Source: an uncultured Magnetococcales bacterium (GTDB taxonomy: Bacteria; Pseudomonadota; Magnetococcia; Magnetococcales; Magnetaquicoccaceae). From it: DNA of 19,252 nt. The position numbers were made by a program, and so were the translations under genes. The notes below the pieces were generated by a model that ran no database searches, was not told the origin of the DNA, and saw only the letters and a program-made list of their open reading frames with translations. Positions 2-19,252 of the stretch are shown here, in pieces; position 1 is the first letter of the stretch, and the number at the start of each line of letters is the position of its first letter. The stretch covers positions 1-19,252 of the forward strand of contig CAIWLA010000049.1 in the NCBI GenBank assembly GCA_903913345.1, in the 5' to 3' direction.

Positions 2-682
2 TCGCTGGAGGTCACGCTCTATAAAATAGCCTCCATGGACCTGGTCAACCTGCCGTTGATCCGGCATGTCGCCCAGACCGGCAAACCCCTGATCCTCTCA
101 ACAGGAATGTCCACCCTGGGTCAGATCGAAGAGGCGGTGGAGACGGTGGCCGAGGCAGGCAACCCCCATTTGATCCTCCTGCACTGCAATTCATCGTATC
201 CCGCTCCGCCGAGCGAGATGAATCTGCAGGTCATGCAGACCCTGAAAAACAGCTTCCAGATTCCCGTTGGCCTCTCGGACCATACCTTTGGCCTCTTCAC
301 CGCCCACACGGCCATGGTCCTGGGTGCCCACGTCATTGAACGTCACTTTACCCTGGATCGCCTGCTGGAAGGACCGGACCACATGCTCTCCTCCGAACCG
401 TGGGAGATGCGGGAATTGGTCAAAATGAGCCGGTTGATCCCGGTCCTCCTGGGATCGCCCGTCAAACGGATTCAACCCACCGAATATGACACCATCAATG
501 CCCAGCGCAAATGCCTCTATGCCGCCCGAAATATCCGGGCGGGAGAGATCTTGACCCAGGAGATGATCGCCATCAAGGGACCGGGCGGTGGCCTGTTGCC
601 CCGCTATCTGGAGATCATTGTCGGACGAACCGCCAGACAAAATATTGAAGCAGACTATCCCATCACCTGGAATGATGTATAA
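2..682 (+). CDS. neuB: NeuB-family nonulosonate synthase, 3' part (N-acetylneuraminate / legionaminate / pseudaminate synthase type)
   Basis: The frame is open to the left window edge, so the N-terminus is missing; about 226 residues remain. The first visible residues (LYKIAS, then NLPLIRHVA, GKPLILSTGM, and LLHCNSSYPAPPSEMNL) are the second half of the NeuB TIM barrel. They are followed by GLSDHT and the metal/substrate-region motif EGPDHMLSSEP. The last ~65 residues (from about YAARNIRAGEI to the stop) match the SAF/antifreeze-like domain that closes the active site of the partner subunit in the dimer. Enzymes of this family condense phosphoenolpyruvate with a six-carbon amino sugar to give a nine-carbon acidic sugar. 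Which sugar (sialic, legionaminic or pseudaminic) cannot be settled from this fragment. The cytidylyltransferase needed for the next step lies nearby on the opposite strand. An internal ATG at 35 is not the true start, because the conserved barrel sequence continues upstream of it. Confidence 0.9.
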   Translation, partial: SLEVTLYKIASMDLVNLPLIRHVAQTGKPLILSTGMSTLGQIEEAVETVAEAGNPHLILLHCNSSYPAPPSEMNLQVMQTLKNSFQIPVGLSDHTFGLFTAHTAMVLGAHVIERHFTLDRLLEGPDHMLSSEPWEMRELVKMSRLIPVLLGSPVKRIQPTEYDTINAQRKCLYAARNIRAGEILTQEMIAIKGPGGGLLPRYLEIIVGRTARQNIEADYPITWNDV

Positions 683-2818: not shown

Positions 2819-3505
2819 TCAACCGGCAGCAAACAGGCATTCCGCCAGCCGAAAGTCAAAAGCGGTATCAATGTCGATGGATCGTTCCGGCGGCATGATA
2901 TGGGCGAGGGTCTCTTCATTGACAAAGGTTTCATGCTGCCGAAACCAATCACACCGGGCCACATAAACCGCCCCATTCAACATATGCGCCGTTGGCGACT
3001 GCTGCCGTCCCGGCCGGGTATTGTACTGGCCCAGGATGGGCGTCATATGACGATCGGCCCCCAGAAAAAAACTCCACCGGGGATTTTTGGCCTGCACCAC
3101 CGTCGCACAGGCTGGCGCAGAACCACCTATACACGTCTCCAGAGTGGCCGAAATATCCGCCGCCAGACGCAATGGCGAGGTCGCCTGGAGGGCCACCACC
3201 CAATCATACCGCTCCGGCAGGGTACCCAACGCATGGAGAATGACATCAATACTCGACGCCGCATCATTGGCCAGGGGAGCCGGACGGACAAACGGCACCT
3301 CACACCCCCACTGGCGGGCAGTGGCGATAATGTGGTCATCGTCCGACGAGAGGATCAGCCGATCAATCTCCGGGCAGGCCTGCGCCGCCGCAATGGTCCA
3401 GGCAATCAGCGGCCGACCGGCCAACGGCAACACATTTTTGCCCGGCAACCCCTTGGATCCCCCACGGGCCAGAATAATCGCCAACACGCTTTGCCCAGCA
3501 ATCAT
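2819..3505 (-). CDS. neuA: CMP-nonulosonate cytidylyltransferase (acylneuraminate cytidylyltransferase family)
   Basis: This 228-residue protein has the family's usual length. The CTP-binding signature ARGGSKGLPGKN lies at residues 13-24, followed by RPLIAWTI. The other family motifs are SSDDDHI, a conserved QATSPLR at residues 107-113, and a C-terminal SIDIDTAFD. The enzyme transfers CMP from CTP to the anomeric hydroxyl of a nine-carbon acidic sugar, activating it for glycosyltransferases. Family relatives include NeuA, LegF/PtmB and PseF, and sequence alone does not separate these. The ATG at 3505 overlaps the stop of the upstream 87-aa gene as ATGA, so the two are probably translationally coupled. 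A GGGGGAGAG ribosome-binding site lies just upstream. The first bases of the gene are part of a 32-bp perfect repeat whose second copy lies at 3867-3898. Confidence 0.92.
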   Translation of the reverse strand: MIAGQSVLAIILARGGSKGLPGKNVLPLAGRPLIAWTIAAAQACPEIDRLILSSDDDHIIATARQWGCEVPFVRPAPLANDAASSIDVILHALGTLPERYDWVVALQATSPLRLAADISATLETCIGGSAPACATVVQAKNPRWSFFLGADRHMTPILGQYNTRPGRQQSPTAHMLNGAVYVARCDWFRQHETFVNEETLAHIMPPERSIDIDTAFDFRLAECLFAAG

Positions 3506-3969: not shown

Positions 3970-4281
3970 TCATCCATGAATCGGAAAAAACGACTTCAGA
4001 ATCAGGGCAACCACACCCCCCACCACGATGGCCATACCCCATTTCAGGGTGGCCAACTCGGCCTTGATGGGTGCCAATTCGGAAGAAATCCGCAACTCCA
4101 GTTCCTTGAAATCCCGCCGGGTGGCCAGTTCCAGTTCCTTGAGATCCCGACGAGTAGCCAGTTCACCCAGATTTTTTTCAAACACCTCCGCCAGAGACTC
4201 CGCTTCCGCCTGCTTGTCCGGCACCCCAGCCGTCTTCAACCGATTGGCAAACCGGAGGGTATCAAAAGTGATCGCGGTCAT
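3970..4281 (-). CDS. DUF1640-type coiled-coil protein with C-terminal membrane anchor
   Basis: The predicted protein has 103 residues. The ATG at 4281 is chosen over an upstream start because the family begins MTAITFDTLRFANRLK and because GGAGGAGAGG lies just before it. A helical, charged centre (residues ~20-80) predicts a coiled coil and holds an exact tandem of an 11-residue unit, LATRRDLKELE then LATRRDFKELE (residues 41-62). A single hydrophobic segment at about 82-97 (MAIVVGGVVALILKSF) ends the protein as a tail anchor. Similar proteins are common in proteobacteria and are related in architecture to the eukaryotic CCDC90/MCUR1 group; their bacterial function is unknown to me. It follows pnp by 111 bases on the same strand and may be transcribed from pnp or from its own promoter. 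Confidence 0.8.
   Translation of the reverse strand: MTAITFDTLRFANRLKTAGVPDKQAEAESLAEVFEKNLGELATRRDLKELELATRRDFKELELRISSELAPIKAELATLKWGMAIVVGGVVALILKSFFPIHG
4096..4161 (-). repeat. 33-bp tandem duplication inside the DUF1640-type gene
   Basis: Two consecutive 33-base units encode residues 41-51 and 52-62, which differ by one residue (L/F). Synonymous differences between the units show the duplication is not brand new. A unit of 11 residues (three helical turns) preserves a coiled-coil register. Confidence 0.75.
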
Positions 4282-6530: not shown

Positions 6531-6800
6531 CTACTTGCGTAAATTCATTCGCTTGATCAGACGTTGATACCGCTCCTGTTCCTGCCCCTTGACATAGGTC
6601 AGCAGACGACGGCGCAGTCCCACCATCTTCAACAAACCGCGACGGGAGTGATGATCCTTGAGATTCTGCCGCAAATGTTCGGTCAGATTGTTGATGCGCT
6701 CTGTCAATAAAGCCACCTGAACCTCCGGGGAACCCGTATCCCCCTCGGTCAGTGCATACTCCTTGATCAATTCCTGCTTGCGTACCGGCGTGATCGACAT
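6531..6800 (-). CDS. rpsO: 30S ribosomal protein S15
   Basis: This 89-residue protein is the standard S15 length. It begins [12 protein letters not shown] and contains the conserved [17 protein letters not shown] and DHHSRRGLL segments that bind the 16S rRNA three-way junction. It ends in the basic [13 protein letters not shown]. The ATG at 6800 has AAAGGAG upstream with an 8-base gap. A longer upstream frame is a shadow of truB. S15 is a primary binder of the 30S platform and in several bacteria represses its own translation by binding its leader; the leader here (35 bases after truB) is short and shows no clear pseudoknot. It sits between truB and pnp, as in most proteobacteria. Confidence 0.97.
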
Positions 6801-6835
6801 CGGATAATCTCCTTTAAGGTCAATAAGATGAACAA

Positions 6836-7591
6836 CTAGAACGCTGTCTGCGGACGCGGCACCGGGATGTCGTCCAGCACCCGATCCACAGGCAACAACA
6901 ACAAAGACAAACTGTTTTCCTCGACGGCCTGGGAGAGCCGTTCCAGGGTGATCCCCTCCTCCAGGGAAAAACCCAACGTCCCGGTCCGCAACAGGCGTTC
7001 CAAATGGGCCAGACAGCCCAGATGCCGTCCCAGATCCCGCGCCAGGGCGCGCATGTAGGTGCCCTTGCCACACCGTACAAAAACCTGGGCCAAACCCGCC
7101 TCATAGGCCTCCAGATCCAGGCTGTGAATGACCACCGAACGGGGCGGCATCACCACCGCCTCACCCCGCCGGGCCAATTCATAGGCCCGCACCCCCCCCA
7201 CATGGATGGCCGAAAAGGCGGGCGGAATCTGCTCCTGTGTCCCGACAAACCGCTGCAGGGCGACCTCCAGAGCCGCCCGGTCCGGCACCTGATCGGTCCG
7301 TTCGGTCACCCGACCGGTCGGATCACCGCTATCGGTCTCCGAACCGAAACGTATCCAGCAGCGATAGGATTTATCCCCATCCAAAACCTGACCCAACCGT
7401 TTGGTGGCCTTGCCCAGGGCCATGGGCAACAATCCCTCGGAAAAGGGGTCCAATGTCCCACCGTGGCCCACCTTCGCCGCCTGGGTGATCCGCTTGACCA
7501 CGGCCACCGCCCGCGCCGATGTCATCTCCACCGGCTTGTGAATCACCAACCAACCATTGATCTCCCGCCCCGGATGACGACCACGACTCAC
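6836..7591 (-). CDS. truB: tRNA pseudouridine(55) synthase TruB (short form)
   Basis: This 251-residue protein has the TruB core. It begins NGWLVIHKP, carries the catalytic aspartate D48 in GGTLDP, and continues with [22 protein letters not shown] and SGDPTG, then [19 protein letters not shown] and [14 protein letters not shown]. TruB isomerises U55 in the T-loop of most tRNAs and acts as a tRNA-folding chaperone. Many TruB proteins are ~300 residues with a C-terminal PUA-like domain. Here the protein ends soon after the [15 protein letters not shown] segment, so that domain appears reduced or absent. The GTG start at 7591 overlaps the rbfA stop as GTGA, with GGGGGAG about 8 bases upstream, so translation is probably coupled. 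rpsO follows after 35 bases. Confidence 0.95.
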
Positions 7592-11823: not shown

Positions 11824-12474
11824 TCACTGCATACGACGCGAAGAGGTACCGACAGGCGCATCCCCTGGCGCGAAAAAATCCCGCCAACGCCGGGCATCAT
11901 GGCGCACCCTGTCACCCATGCGCACCTCCATCACTGCCAACACCGCCACCGGACCGTTGTTGCCGCAGGCCAACCCAAACTGCTCCCGATCCAGCAACTC
12001 CCAGACATCCTCCAGGGTATACCGATGGATCAGTTGGGCCAGTTTTTGCCGCGTATTGTCCGCCGTGTCCGCCGCCAGCAGGAGAACAGGCCGCCCCCCC
12101 CCGGCCACGGCCTCGGAACAATCCCGCAGACCCCGGCGCAGACAACCCGCCCGCCGCGCCAACCCCAGCCCGTCCAGAAAGCGCGCCGACAGTGCCCTGC
12201 CCACCGACTGCAGCATGGCATCCATCTCGGTGGGAGCCACACCCCGCCGTTTCAAAAAGGCACGCAGAGGAACCGGGGAGGGGATCACGTAGACCCCTCG
12301 TCCGGGCAGACGCCCCGCCAGATCCGCCACCCAACGCCCCTGCGGATCCGACACAAACCGCAACAAATCCTGCCTGGGACGCTGCTGCCGAGTCACCGAA
12401 CAGGAGCGCGTACCGCTATCGCCTGCCCGATCCGTTCGCGCCGTGACCGGATCAGCGGGTTTTTCCGGCATCAT
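11824..12474 (-). CDS. YlxR (DUF448) - L7Ae-like fusion RNA-binding protein
   Basis: The predicted protein has 216 residues. The N-terminal ~75 match YlxR: RSCSVTRQQRPRQDLLRFV, DLAGRLPGRGVYV. The C-terminal part from about residue 85 (ALSARFLDGLGLARRAGCLRRG, then RPVLLLAADTADNT and FGLACGNNGPVAVLAV) matches an L7Ae/L30e-type fold. This two-domain form is usual in alphaproteobacteria; elsewhere the halves are often separate or the second is missing. YlxR proteins have been linked to RNA binding and to RNase P or transcription regulation, but the function here is inferred only. The ATG at 12474 overlaps the end of nusA by 23 bases, so translation probably depends on nusA; no strong ribosome-binding site is seen. 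Position between nusA and infB is canonical. Confidence 0.88.
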   Translation of the reverse strand: MMPEKPADPVTARTDRAGDSGTRSCSVTRQQRPRQDLLRFVSDPQGRWVADLAGRLPGRGVYVIPSPVPLRAFLKRRGVAPTEMDAMLQSVGRALSARFLDGLGLARRAGCLRRGLRDCSEAVAGGGRPVLLLAADTADNTRQKLAQLIHRYTLEDVWELLDREQFGLACGNNGPVAVLAVMEVRMGDRVRHDARRWRDFFAPGDAPVGTSSRRMQ

Positions 12475-13969
12475 CGAACCAACCCGCTGCCGTCCGTGCT
12501 TCCAGAATCAATTTTTCCGCCCCTTCCTGGGTCAGCGCGTCCCCCACCAACTCCAACACCTCATCGGTGGCCAGGTCGGCCAAATCATCCAGGGAGAGGA
12601 TCCCCTTTTCCACCAACTGCCGATCCATCCCCGCCGGCAATCCCGTCAATCGTTTCATCCGGGGATCGATGCGCGCCGCCACCTTGGCCGCCTCTTTCTC
12701 CAGGGCAGCGACCATCAAATGGTCCCGGGCGCGGGTGCGCAACTCCTGGGCAATCTCCTCGTCAAACCCCTCGATCCCCCCCAACTCCTCCAGAGGGACG
12801 TAGGCAATCTCCTCCAGGGCGGAAAAGCCCTCCTGCACCAGGGCACTGGCCACCTCCCGGTCAATATCCAACCAGGTCATGAAATTGTTCGCCAGCCCCT
12901 CAAACTCCTCGGCCCGGACCGCCTGGTCGGCCTGTTCGGTCACAATGTCGATCCGCCAGCCCGTCAATTCGCTGGCCAGGCGGACATTCTGCCCACGCCG
13001 ACCGATGGCCAGCGAGAGTTGATCCGTCCCCACAATCACCTTGATGGTTTTGTCTTCCTCGTCCACCACCACCTTGGCCACCTCGGCGGGAGCCAGGGCG
13101 TTGCAAACAAAGACCGCCGGATCGGCAGACCATTCGATAATATCAATCCGCTCCCCCTGCAATTCGGTCACCACCCCCTGCACACGGGAACCCCGAACCC
13201 CCACACAGGCCCCCACGGGATCCACGTGAGAGTCGTTGGAATAGACCGCAATCTTGCTGCGAAAACCGGGATCCCGCGCCACGGACTTGATCTCGACAAT
13301 GCCGTCATAGATCTCAGGCACCTCCATCTCAAAGAGCCGGGGCACCATGCGCGGATCGGTACGGGAGAGGATCACCTGCGGGCCGCGCGGTGAGTCCCGA
13401 ACCTCGTAAATGTAGGCGCGAATGCGATCTCCCGGACGATAGTGCTCCCTGGGCAACTGTTGCTCGTGGGGCAGAAAGGCCGAAGCCCGTCCCAGGTCCA
13501 CATGGACATTATTGCGCTCCACCCGTTTGACCAGACCGTTGATCAGTTGTCCCTGGCGATCAAAATATTCCATATAGACGCTGTTCCGCTCGGCTTCCCG
13601 CACCTTCTGGACGATCACCTGCTTGGCGGTCTGGGCGGCAATGCGCCCGAAATCGATGGGCGGCAACCGTTCGGCAATCAAATCGCCCACCTGGGCCACC
13701 GGATTCAGGCGCAACGCCTCCTCCAGCAGGATATGGGTATCCGGCCCCTCGTAGGCGTCATCCTCGTCAGAGGTCACCACCTCCCGCAGCTGGTTGATCA
13801 GGAAATCCCCGGACTTGTATTCAAATTTGACCTGAATATTTTTATGGGCACCATATTTTTTGCGGGAGGCGGTCTGGATGGCGATCTCCATCGCCTCAAT
13901 GACCACTTCCCGCTTGATGCCCCGCTCGCGGGCCAATTGTTCGGCAATCTGCACAATCTCAACAGACAT
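12452..13969 (-). CDS. nusA: Transcription termination/antitermination factor NusA
   Basis: The predicted protein has 505 residues. The N-terminal RNA-polymerase-binding domain (about 1-125) begins MSVEIVQIAEQLARERGIKR. An S1 domain (about 140-205, GLVKRVERNNVHVDLGRA) follows. Two KH domains come next, with DPVGACVGVRGSRVQ and LSLAIGRRGQNVRLASELTGW. The C-terminal ~150 residues contain two acidic-type repeats (around LVQEGFSALEEIAYVPLEEL and GILSLDDLADLATDEVLELVG). NusA binds elongating polymerase, modulates pausing and intrinsic termination, and takes part in antitermination on rRNA. The ATG at 13969 has AAGGAAG about 9 bases upstream. It is the first gene of the cluster here, because rimP is not found upstream. 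A TATACT at 13999-14004 may be its -10 element. Confidence 0.97.
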   Translation of the reverse strand: MSVEIVQIAEQLARERGIKREVVIEAMEIAIQTASRKKYGAHKNIQVKFEYKSGDFLINQLREVVTSDEDDAYEGPDTHILLEEALRLNPVAQVGDLIAERLPPIDFGRIAAQTAKQVIVQKVREAERNSVYMEYFDRQGQLINGLVKRVERNNVHVDLGRASAFLPHEQQLPREHYRPGDRIRAYIYEVRDSPRGPQVILSRTDPRMVPRLFEMEVPEIYDGIVEIKSVARDPGFRSKIAVYSNDSHVDPVGACVGVRGSRVQGVVTELQGERIDIIEWSADPAVFVCNALAPAEVAKVVVDEEDKTIKVIVGTDQLSLAIGRRGQNVRLASELTGWRIDIVTEQADQAVRAEEFEGLANNFMTWLDIDREVASALVQEGFSALEEIAYVPLEELGGIEGFDEEIAQELRTRARDHLMVAALEKEAAKVAARIDPRMKRLTGLPAGMDRQLVEKGILSLDDLADLATDEVLELVGDALTQEGAEKLILEARTAAGWFDDAGKTR

Positions 13970-13998
13970 GAATAACGACTTCCTTGATGAAATGATTC

Positions 13999-14004
13999 AG
14001 TATA
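13999..14004 (-). promoter_or_regulatory. Possible -10 element for the nusA cluster
   Basis: On the - strand TATACT lies about 30 bases before the nusA start, preceded by TTT. It would give a leader of about 20 bases that still includes the AAGGAAG site. No good -35 is found 16-18 bases upstream. Promoter identity is therefore weak, but some start is needed downstream of the terminator at 14101-14123 unless that terminator is read through. Confidence 0.3.
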
Positions 14005-14100
14005 AAACGCCGATCGGACCTCTCTGGCCCAACGGTCCCCAGGCACCCACTCACCGTCACAAACGGGCGCATCCCGTCTCACAACGCCCTCGTCATGGAT

Positions 14101-14123
14101 AAAAAAAAGCCGGCCTAGCCGAC
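14101..14123 (-). terminator. Intrinsic terminator
   Basis: On the - strand GTCGGC-TAG-GCCGGC forms a 6-bp stem (one U-G pair) with a 3-base loop, followed at once by eight T residues. It lies between ftsB and nusA, where it ends the predicted small RNA and separates nusA from upstream transcription. Confidence 0.88.
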
Positions 14124-14204
14124 TTTGTATCCGAAACACAGGTCAGTCACCCTCCAGTGACCCGTCCCCTTGTTCACCTGCTGCAAGAGGACGGCGAGTC
14201 AGTC
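14101..14204 (-). ncRNA. Candidate small RNA between ftsB and nusA
   Basis: A near-consensus promoter and a strong terminator, both on the - strand, bracket about 104 bases with no credible protein frame. The predicted RNA folds almost completely. Hairpin 1 is an 11-bp stem (CCGTCCTCTTG at 14194-14184 with CAAGGGGACGG at 14172-14162, one G-U pair) and an 11-base loop. Hairpin 2 (14162-14141) has a GTCAC/GTGAC stem presenting TGGAGG in a 6-base loop, and the outer GGTCA/TGACC can pair as an alternative. Hairpin 3 is TGTGT/ATACA around a TTCGG loop. Hairpin 4 is the terminator. I do not recognise it as tRNA, SRP RNA, 6S RNA or RNase P RNA; the SRP GGAAG/AGCAG core and tRNA arms are absent. It could instead be a leader that attenuates nusA. 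It occupies most of the 321-base stretch 13970-14290, which has no protein gene. Confidence 0.6.
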
Positions 14205-14210
14205 ATGCTG

Positions 14211-14239
14211 ACTATAAAACAAAAACCGACCCCTGCCAA
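14211..14239 (-). promoter_or_regulatory. Sigma-70 type promoter for the candidate small RNA
   Basis: On the - strand TTGGCA (14239-14234), a 17-base spacer (14233-14217) and TATAGT (14216-14211) match the consensus at 5 of 6 bases in each hexamer with optimal spacing. Transcription would start near 14204-14205. It is the best promoter match I found in the window. Confidence 0.75.
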
Positions 14240-14260
14240 GGGAATCCGGTTGCCACGCAC

Positions 14261-14291
14261 AAAAAGCCCTCCACGCGAAGACGACGGCTTT
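14261..14291 (-). terminator. Weak terminator candidate after ftsB
   Basis: On the - strand AAAGCC just after the ftsB stop pairs with GGCTTT 17 bases later, and two further T residues follow (TTTTT in all). The loop is large and the stem short, so function is uncertain. Confidence 0.35.
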
Positions 14292-14611
14292 CACTCTTTC
14301 GGATCTTTTGGCTCTTTGGGCACAATGAAGAGAATTTCATCGGGGTAGACCATGCCCAATTCGCGACGCGCCACCTCTTCCAGTGCCGCCGGATCCTTTT
14401 CCAGGAGGACAATTTCGTCCTTGATCTGTTGGATTCGCCTCTCCGCGAGCCGCACGTCCTCCATGGCCAACAGGTACTGTTTTTGTGTCTGTCGCCAACG
14501 GACCAGCCCCTGATCGCCAAACCACAGCAGGTATTGTACCCAGACATTGGCAACCAACAGGAAAAGCCCCAGAAAAACCCCAAAAGAGGTCGTTTTTTCT
14601 CCGTTGCTCAA
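14291..14611 (-). CDS. ftsB: FtsB/DivIC-family septum formation initiator
   Basis: The predicted protein has 106 residues. A short cytoplasmic N-terminus is followed by one membrane segment at about residues 11-31 (GVFLGLFLLVANVWVQYLLW). A coiled coil (about 36-75, including VRLAERRIQQIKDEIVLLEK) leads to the family ending PAALEEVARRELGMVYPDEILFIVP, characteristic of FtsB/DivIC. FtsB forms the FtsQLB complex that activates septal peptidoglycan synthesis. The start is a TTG at 14611 with GGGGAG about 11 bases upstream; no in-frame ATG precedes the membrane segment. The gene stands alone on the - strand, divergent from pyrE, with 102 bases between them and no convincing promoter visible in that gap. 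Confidence 0.87.
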   Translation of the reverse strand: MSNGEKTTSFGVFLGLFLLVANVWVQYLLWFGDQGLVRWRQTQKQYLLAMEDVRLAERRIQQIKDEIVLLEKDPAALEEVARRELGMVYPDEILFIVPKEPKDPKE

Positions 14612-16204: not shown

Positions 16205-19200
16205 ATGGTGCAACAAACTGAAAAACAAGCAAAAAAAATGGCGATATTCCACCAGATGCCGCCATCGCGCATCCTGATCCTGGATGGGGCCATGGGCACC
16301 ATGATCCAAAGGCATCCGTTGACAGAGGCCGATTTTCGAGGCGATCGTTTTATCCATCATCCGCAGGATGTACAGGGCAACAATGATCTCCTTTCCTTGA
16401 CCCGTCCAGACATTATCCTCGCCATCCATACCGCCTACCTGGAGGCGGGGGCGGATATTCTGGAGACCAACACCTTCAATGCCAATGCCATCTCCCTGGC
16501 CGACTATGGCATGGCGTCACTGGCCTATGAACTGAACCAGGCATCGGCGCAGTTGGCCCGCGACGCTGCCGACCAGGCGGAGGCGGCCAACCCCGATCAG
16601 CCCCGTTTTGTCGCCGGTATTCTAGGCCCCACCAACCGCACCGCCTCCCTCTCCCCCGATGTCAACAATCCCGGTTTTCGCAATGTCACCTTTGCGGATC
16701 TGTACGCCGCCTACACCACCGCCATCGAGGGGCTGGTGGATGGCGGGGTGGATCTGCTGATGGTGGAGACCATCTTTGACACCTTGAACTGCAAGGCGGC
16801 CCTGTTTGCCATCGCCGACTATAACGCCAAACGGAGCGAACCCCTGCCCATTCTGATCTCTGCCACCATCGCCGATCAGAGCGGTCGCACCCTCTCCGGG
16901 CAGACGGTGGAGGCCTTTTGTCACTCGGTGGCCCATGCCCGTCCCCTCAGTATCGGCTTGAACTGTGCCCAGGGGGCCGACCAGATGCGTCCCTATCTCC
17001 TGGAGCTGGGCCGTCTCACCGGTGCTCTGGTCTCCGCCCATCCCAACGCCGGTCTGCCCAACGAATTGGGGGGATATGACGAAACCCCCGCCGCCATGGC
17101 GGCCAAAATAGGGGAGTTTGCCCGCTCCGGCCTGCTCAATATTGTCGGCGGCTGCTGCGGGACCACCCCCGATCATATTCGCGCCATCGCGGAGGCGGTC
17201 CGGGGAGTGCCCCCCCGCATTCCGGTCGCCCCCCCGCCCGCCTGTCGGTTGAGCGGTCTGGAACCCTTCAATATCACCCCGGAGAGCCTCTTTGTCACCA
17301 TTGGCGAACGGACCAATGTCGCCGGTTCCCGCCTGTTTGCCCGTCTGATCCTCGAAGAGCAGTATGAGGCCGCCCTGGATATCGCCCGCAAGCAGGTGGA
17401 AGACGGAGCCAATCTGATCGACATCAACATGGACCATGCCCTGTTGGATTCGGTGACCGCCATGACCCGTTTTTTGCACCTGGTGGCCTCCGAACCCGAC
17501 ATCAGCCGGGTGCCGATCATGCTGGACTCCTCCAACTGGGCGGTCCTGGAGGCCGGGTTGCAGTGCATCCAGGGGCGGGGGGTGGTCAACTCCATCAGTC
17601 TCAAGGAAGGGGAAGAGACCTTTCTGACCCAGGCCCGTCTGGTCCAACGGTATGGAGCGGCCGTCCTGGTCATGGCCTTTGACGAACAGGGTCAGGCGGA
17701 CACCCTGGAGAGACGGCAGACCATCTGCCAGCGTGCCCATCGCCTCCTCACCGAACAGGCGGGCTTTCTGCCGGGGGAGATCATCTTTGACCCCAATATT
17801 TTTGCCGTGGCCACCGGCATCGAGGCCCACAACCGGTATGCCGTGGATTTTTTCCAGGCCATTCGCTGGATCAAGGCCACCCTGCCCGGTGCCCTGATCA
17901 GCGGCGGGGTGAGCAATGTCTCCTTCTCCTTTCGCGGCAACCCGGTGGTGCGGGAGGCCATGCACGCCATCTTTCTCCATCATGCCATCGCGGCGGGCAT
18001 GGATATGGGGATCGTCAACGCCGGGCAGTTGCCCCTCTACCAGGAGATTCCCCCTGAACTGCGGCACCGGGCCGAAAATGTCCTGCTGGACCAGGGTGAG
18101 GAGGCCACCGAGCGACTGCTGGAGGTGGCAGAAACCCTCAAGGCCACCACCGGCCAGGAGATCGACCGGACGGTCGCGTTGGCCTGGCGGCAGGCCCCCG
18201 TGGCCGAGCGTCTCGTCCATGCCATGGTCAAGGGGATCACCGAGTTTATCGAGGCGGATGTCGAAGAGGCCCGACTGGCCGCCTCCCACCCCCTGGCGGT
18301 GGTCGAGGGACCGCTGATGGCCGGGATGGACCGGGTGGGCACCCTCTTCGGATCGGGTGAGATGTTTCTCCCCCAGGTGGTCAAGAGTGCCCGCGTGATG
18401 AAACAGGCGGTGGCCTGTCTGCTGCCCTACATGGAGGCCGCACCGGGGGCGCAGGCCGACACCCGCAAGGGGCGCATCCTGCTGGCGACGGTCAAGGGGG
18501 ATGTGCACGATATTGGCAAAAATATTGTCAAGGTGGTCTTGCAGTGCAACCATTTTGAGGTGATCGATCTGGGGGTGATGGTGGCGGGCCAGACGATCAT
18601 CCAGCAAGCCCGCGAGGCACAGGTGGACATGATTGGCCTCTCCGGGTTGATCACGCCGTCGCTGGAGCAGATGGCCCTGCTGGCGCAGGAGATGCAACGG
18701 CTGGGATTGACCATCCCGCTGCTGGTAGGGGGGGCCACTACCTCGCCATTGCACACGGCGATCAAGATTGCACCGCAGTATGCCGGTCCGGTCGTGCAGG
18801 TCAAGGATGCCTCCCAGGCGGTGAGCATTGCCTCCAAACTGATGCACCCGCAGGAGCGCATCCCGTTCATCGCCGAGTTGCGGACCTCCCAGGAGCGGTT
18901 GCGCCACAATTACAGTCAGCGCAAGGCGCAGGGGCGTTCCATCCCCCTCCTCCAGGCCCGGACGCGCCGCCCCCGCCTGGACTGGGCCACCACCCTGCCC
19001 GCCGCGCCCCGCACCCTGGGGGTGCAGGATGTCACCCCGACGCTACGCGACTTGCGACCTTTTATCGACTGGACGCCGTTTTTCCACACCTGGGAGATGA
19101 GCGGCCGTTATCCAGAGATCCTCTCCGACCCCAAGAGTGGCACAGCGGCCACCCGACTGTTTCAGGATGCGCAGGCGTGGCTGGCACGGATCGAGGCTGA

Positions 19201-19252
19201 AAATCTGCTCCAGGCCAGGGGGATATTCGGGCTGTTTGCCGCCCAGGCCACC
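16205..19252 (+). CDS. metH: Cobalamin-dependent methionine synthase (MetH), 3' end cut by window
   Basis: The frame runs from the ATG at 16205 to the window edge without a stop (1,016 codons). The family is ~1,150-1,230 residues, so roughly the last 150 are missing. The homocysteine domain begins [11 protein letters not shown] and carries the zinc ligands C254 (GLNCAQG), C317 and C318 (GGCCG), with the same 63-residue spacing as in E. coli MetH. The pterin domain starts [13 protein letters not shown]. The cap and B12 domains include the cobalamin signature D766-x-H768-x-x-G771, GLSGLITPS and LVGGATTS. The AdoMet reactivation domain begins near [18 protein letters not shown]. The enzyme moves a methyl group from methyltetrahydrofolate via cob(I)alamin to homocysteine. 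No good ribosome-binding site precedes 16205 (only a distant GGA), and the ATG at 16238 is an alternative start. I do not recognise a cobalamin, SAM or SAH riboswitch in the 274 bases upstream. Confidence 0.96.

Follow-up and report, generated by a model that had tools for sequence, protein, structure and literature searches.

The nusA gene of the window, by which we mean the whole 19,252-nt stretch of DNA analysed here, is preceded on its own strand by a promoter-like site, a short predicted leader and an intrinsic terminator, which together lie downstream of an ftsB-like gene (Table 1). The source is a draft genome of 3.63 Mb in 729 contigs (G000, the window's contig being C49). Both ends of the unit had been proposed in a first-pass annotation, as TTGGCA-17 nt-TATAGT and as an intrinsic terminator with eight T residues, all on the minus strand, and both proposals are borne out. 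The terminator stem reads AAAGTCGGC-TAG-GCCGGCTTT at 14126-14106, with eight T in total at 14108-14101 (minus strand), and the position of the promoter predicts a transcription start near 14205. Elsewhere in the window, a 1016-aa open frame that runs off the end (16205-19252) carries the Pfam domains S-methyl_trans, Pterin_bind, B12-binding and Met_synt_B12 of a cobalamin-dependent methionine synthase, and a 761-aa frame antisense to it (16622-18907) is probably spurious. A NeuB-family/SAF protein (35-682, plus strand) and a cytidylyltransferase (2819-3505, minus strand) are encoded as in nonulosonic (sialic-type) acid synthesis, and two copies of a 33-base repeat (4097-4164) fall within a small frame that matches a coiled-coil model weakly, under its Pfam cut-off. 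The listed frame at 6531-7073 exceeds its S15 domain, which occupies residues 99-179 of 180, and the true rpsO start is therefore probably internal.

Table 1. Features of the region between the ftsB-like gene and nusA, in window coordinates.
Feature	Position	Strand	Basis or remark
ftsB-like gene, upstream of the unit	ends 14291	same strand as nusA	Pfam DivIC
Second terminator-like hairpin, closer behind the ftsB-like gene	14282-14266		terminator scan
Promoter-like site	14211..14239	-	consensus scan; TTGGCA (-35) 14239-14234, 17-nt spacer, TATAGT (-10) 14216-14211
Leader RNA ahead of terminator, about 80 nt	14127..14205	-	predicted from promoter and terminator positions
Genus-level stem, 5' arm (partner 14168-14158)	14191..14201	-	RNAalifold, 7 genus sequences; pair counts (modest support)
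Genus-level stem, 3' arm	14158..14168	-	RNAalifold, 7 genus sequences; pair counts
Intrinsic terminator, rimP-leader-type hairpin	14101..14126	-	terminator scan; stem comparison across order; covariation
Untranslated stretch, terminator to nusA	13970..14100	-	rimP site in most of the order's other families
nusA, first gene behind the leader	12452..13969	-	Pfam NusA_N, KH_5, S1

Judged alone, the promoter-to-terminator unit hardly exceeds chance. A promoter scan of 2.4 kb found one promoter-like site against 0.8 +/- 0.9 in shuffled sequence, the terminator scan found eight against 2.3 +/- 1.4, and folding of the unit gave z = -1.86, with 9 of 200 shuffles equally stable. No Rfam model matched the window at its gathering score; at E <= 10 the interval 13900-14400 returned four matches, each far under its own cut-off, and RF01770 was not among them. 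No tRNA or tmRNA was found in the window, and a search of a plasmid collection gave no match. We count the unit as real because it is conserved: its DNA matches all six other genomes of the same genus, upstream of nusA and on the same strand. The TTGGCA hexamer and its 17-nt spacer are present in 7/7 genomes of the genus (in one of which, G005, NusA is 87% identical to that of the window).

Conservation extends to the order. Our survey covered 48 genomes, of which 35 are readable upstream of nusA (upstream of rimP in G040); the other 13 are unjudgeable, eight with no nusA found, four with a nusA fragment only, and one (G023) at a contig end. Every readable genome carries the terminator stem AGUCGGC(loop)GCCGGCU, or a near form, upstream of nusA or rimP, at 75-849 nt from nusA (from rimP in one genome). 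The stem is nearly invariant and the loop variable. Thirty-two of the 35 retain a U.G wobble, which is replaced by U-A in G027 and G038 and by C-G in G030; G006 has one stem mismatch. Short DNA matches over the terminator were also obtained in six genomes outside the genus; all these matches, within the genus and beyond it, are on the same strand and 74-845 nt upstream of nusA. The exact stem pattern occurs in 30 of the 48 genomes and is single-copy except in G008 and G013, each of which has one further site that reads like part of a coding sequence; every other occurrence is the site at nusA. A relaxed pattern matches 34 genomes, 33 of them at the leader; sites away from nusA are found in G013, G008, G018 and G040, the last of which has a leader stem of its own (GGTCGGC) that escapes the relaxed pattern.

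When named genomes were scanned for the exact stem, at least 117 stretches were recovered, in pieces of up to 8 kb each. Fifteen bear nusA, and in 14 of these the stem is upstream on the same strand; in the fifteenth (L216) it is on the opposite strand. Ten of the 14 are named as Magnetococcales or Ca. Magnetaquicoccus, and L203, L213, L217 and L220 are placed in the order by NusA identity of 74-90%. On 102 of the stretches listed nusA was not found within the piece, and the specificity of the stem therefore holds inside the order only; outside it the same letters are for the most part something else, probably ordinary terminators.

The stem has also changed in a manner that preserves pairing. 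We compared 33 distinct stems: the order supplied 24, and nine were chosen by hand, with a bias towards clear cases, from 25 other genomes of the phylum that have the motif. In this set 98.3% of cells pair and six of nine pairs are altered on both sides, values that none of 500 shuffles matched; slid controls pair at 25-65%. Compensatory changes, for which the first-pass annotation had proposed looking, are found at the terminator stem. The clearest is a single pair that is C-G in 24/24 rows from the order and G-C in 9/9 rows from the rest of the phylum. Elsewhere in the phylum AGUGGGC(...)GCCCGCU stands in a like place, so that what sets the order apart is a single compensated swap of a base pair. 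Among the 36 other phylum genomes examined, of 52, 25 have, as read by eye, a hairpin of the GGGC/GCCC type and a T run 494-941 nt upstream of nusA; 14 of the 25 share the U.G position, for example AAAGTGGGCCGCGGCCCGCTTT. The other 11 of the 36 are without the GGGC/GCCC type, and two of them (G048 and G062) have a CGGC/GCCG core. In the window's hairpin the wobble costs about 2.7 kcal/mol relative to a C-G pair (-11.2 versus -13.9).

Ahead of the terminator the RNA is far less constant. By a looser choice of promoter, leader length ranges from 25 to 195 nt across the order and is dissimilar between families, with 81-101 nt in the window's genus and 25-29 nt in eight sister-genus genomes, so that only the terminator is common to the whole order. 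Within the genus there is modest support for a longer 5' stem of ten pairs (Table 1): over seven sequences 90% of cells are paired and four pairs are altered on both sides, the covariation being reached in 19, the percentage paired in 25 and the number of changed cells in 53 of 500 shuffles. The 11-bp first stem of the first-pass annotation is indeed what single-sequence folding gives, but comparison favours the ten-pair stem instead. Its second hairpin, with a TGGAGG loop, shares bases with that stem, and although 88.6% of cells pair, covariation is at shuffle level (216/500). The letters TGGAGG themselves occur in one of the seven genus sequences, and the reading of the loop as a Shine-Dalgarno sequence or as a CsrA site, the latter of which would require a GGA kept in a hairpin loop, falls with this lack of conservation. 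A third hairpin, capped by TTCGG, pairs below its own shuffles (80.0% versus a mean of 83.4%) and lacks covariation. The seven genus leaders have no short reading frame in common; a ten-residue ATG...TGA frame in the window's genome is shared by none of the others, and a leader peptide was rejected. Pairing of the leader with the left arm of the terminator, as expected of an antiterminator, seemed promising by eye (a GACU opposite AGUC near the 5' end); when 35 leaders were compared with their shuffles, however, it was no better than chance (median p 0.47; 0/35 at p <= 0.05), and it had no covariation in the genus.

In most families of the order rimP lies between the terminator and nusA. The earlier remark that rimP precedes nusA in other bacteria was right and proved important, for rimP is missing from the window's genus, where the leader consequently stands directly ahead of nusA, and from three further lineages. 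We searched the 48 genomes twice, with the RimP_N profile (24 positive) and with an alignment of seven RimP proteins (26 positive). Neither search found rimP in the seven genomes of the window's genus or in G008, G013 and G030, the last of which is only 78% complete, so that absence there is sure only for the locus. A further genome, G036, has no RimP_N; all that is left between its leader and nusA is a C-terminal piece of rimP (profile positions 121-161). Gaps without rimP that correspond to 13970-14100 are present in G001-G006, G008, G013, G030 and G036. A NusA tree was built from 29 genomes, 11 of them without rimP; on it the distribution of rimP needs four changes, all four forced by well supported branches, and, rimP being widespread among other bacteria, we infer that these were losses and not gains. 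All 11 rimP-less genomes of the tree have the leader. That it is retained where rimP is missing speaks against RimP as the sensor and in favour of NusA or some other elongation factor.

A leader of this type has been published. The rimP-leader is described by Naville & Gautheret (2010, PMC2965389) as the attenuator of the rimP-nusA-infB operon; they call it the most ubiquitous of transcription attenuators and give it a GGGc(...)gCCC stem that is conserved, a general form that has no visible antiterminator, and RimP or, preferably, NusA as the supposed sensor. The Magnetococcales element resembles that description (PMC2965389) in being a short, sequence-conserved intrinsic terminator with a T run in the leader of a nusA operon, a position it holds in 35/35 readable genomes, in having GGC(...)GCC at the loop end, and in showing neither a visible antiterminator nor any larger conserved element in the rest of the leader. 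It differs (PMC2965389) in that one pair of the published core is swapped (CGGC...GCCG): no change affects the closing C-G or the two inner GGC/GCC pairs that lie closest to the loop, and the pair after them is exchanged, which leaves a match in register and not letter for letter. It differs also in that the window's genus is without rimP. The unit is a divergent Magnetococcales form of the known rimP-leader, kept in the window although rimP, its usual successor, has been lost.

The corresponding Rfam family, RF01770, appears in a table as 'Gammaprotebacteria rimP leader' (PMC5955585), and it shares the operon position of our element; none of the 48 genomes of the order reaches its 47-bit cut-off, however, while an E. 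coli control was positive. One weaker covariance-model match, of 40.4 bits, was obtained in G023 (L107; G023:C51:61323-61426); no rimP or nusA is seen within the surrounding 3.1 kb, and the neighbouring frames read like thioredoxin-like and hydroxylamine-reductase-like proteins. The statement that the unit belongs to no known RNA family thus holds for Rfam models, none of which matches over its cut-off, and not for the literature. According to a 2025 review (PMC12288461), B. subtilis NusA is autoregulated through NusA-stimulated termination in its own 5' leader; there too an intrinsic terminator lies in the leader upstream of nusA, with the difference that NusA dependence is reported from experiments in B. 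subtilis and is proposed in Magnetococcales. In E. coli, terminators upstream of rimP and NusA control of its operon have been reported (PMC6511841). No earlier account of nusA attenuation in Magnetococcales was found in the literature searched.

The comparisons establish a promoter-leader-terminator unit, an order-wide place before nusA, a compensated stem and survival without rimP. We consider it likely that the unit is a 5' attenuator leader of the nusA-ylxR-infB-rbfA-truB cluster, with NusA feedback as the most likely control. This reading is supported because the unit stays with nusA whatever gene lies upstream, because no promoter-like site is conserved after the terminator, and because the same type of leader is published. 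RNA polymerase would start near 14205, make a leader of about 80 nt and meet the terminator at 14126-14101, where part of the polymerases would stop, releasing an RNA of about 105 nt, and the remainder would read through into nusA. NusA carried on the polymerase would aid termination at the hairpin, such that high NusA leads to more stopping and low NusA to more read-through; an active promoter, partial termination and NusA as sensor are what we infer here, and the stop signal of the leader probably lets the cell limit its NusA output. Against this reading stand the swapped pair of the published stem, the unmatched RF01770, the want of an antiterminator, and the 15 of 35 genomes that under one strict rule show no promoter-like site ahead of the terminator. 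An eight-T tract with a hairpin of -11.2 kcal/mol could, moreover, terminate without NusA.

An attenuator whose sensor is something other than NusA, be it a ribosomal signal, a different elongation factor or, where present, RimP, is unlikely but is the alternative that fares best. RimP is named as a possibility by Naville & Gautheret (PMC2965389), and in E. coli rimP 5' UTR fusions respond to a Rho mutant (PMC7815308). In genomes without rimP, however, which have kept the stem all the same, RimP cannot be the sensor, and NusA control is on record for B. subtilis (PMC12288461), which speaks for NusA. The first-pass annotation had left open a stand-alone small RNA or a leader attenuating the nusA cluster, the latter perhaps through sensing of NusA-dependent termination. 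A trans-acting small RNA gene complete with promoter and terminator, placed before a separately transcribed nusA, would account for the complete unit and for the modest covariation of the genus-level stem, and one study lists the rimP leader among ProQ-associated small RNAs derived from attenuators (PMC5391140). We nevertheless regard such a gene as quite improbable. Throughout the order the unit keeps its place ahead of rimP-nusA or nusA; the part ahead of the terminator, of variable predicted length (25-195 nt), is not conserved beyond the genus, so that there is no RNA body conserved independently of the operon; and a promoter-like site within 160 nt downstream of the terminator is seen in just 1/35 genomes, against 20/35 within 250 nt upstream (same strict rule). 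Terminated leaders can themselves be seen as small RNAs, the ProQ-associated rimP leader being an instance (PMC5391140). Of the two options it is the leader that is upheld, and a separate small RNA gene is not needed. That the hairpin is a mere 3' terminator of ftsB, as its position between two genes on one strand might suggest, is scarcely credible given the promoter-like site between ftsB and the hairpin, the second hairpin closer behind ftsB, and the presence of ftsB upstream (tblastn) in only 16/35 genomes, for some of which the upstream pieces examined were short, while the hairpin is constant.

Returning to the attenuator leader, we put forward tentatively, as a possibility that is more doubtful than the leader itself, that the frozen hairpin AGU(C/G)GGC...GCC(G/C)GCU, in which the U.G wobble is retained, serves beyond termination for sequence-specific recognition by NusA or by some other protein of the elongation complex. 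It would have been kept through four separate losses of rimP, by which the two candidate sensors are told apart, with one pair re-coded in Magnetococcales, and the leader, three- to fourfold longer in the window's genus, may yield a terminated RNA that acts as a small RNA. The lineages that have lost rimP and kept the leader form a natural experiment whose outcome points to NusA, or to a different elongation factor, as the sensor, and the compensated swap shows which letters of the stem can be replaced, the wobble and the inner GGC/GCC being replaced rarely or never. The finding adds to the rimP-leader an order that Rfam's model of it (RF01770) fails to recognise.
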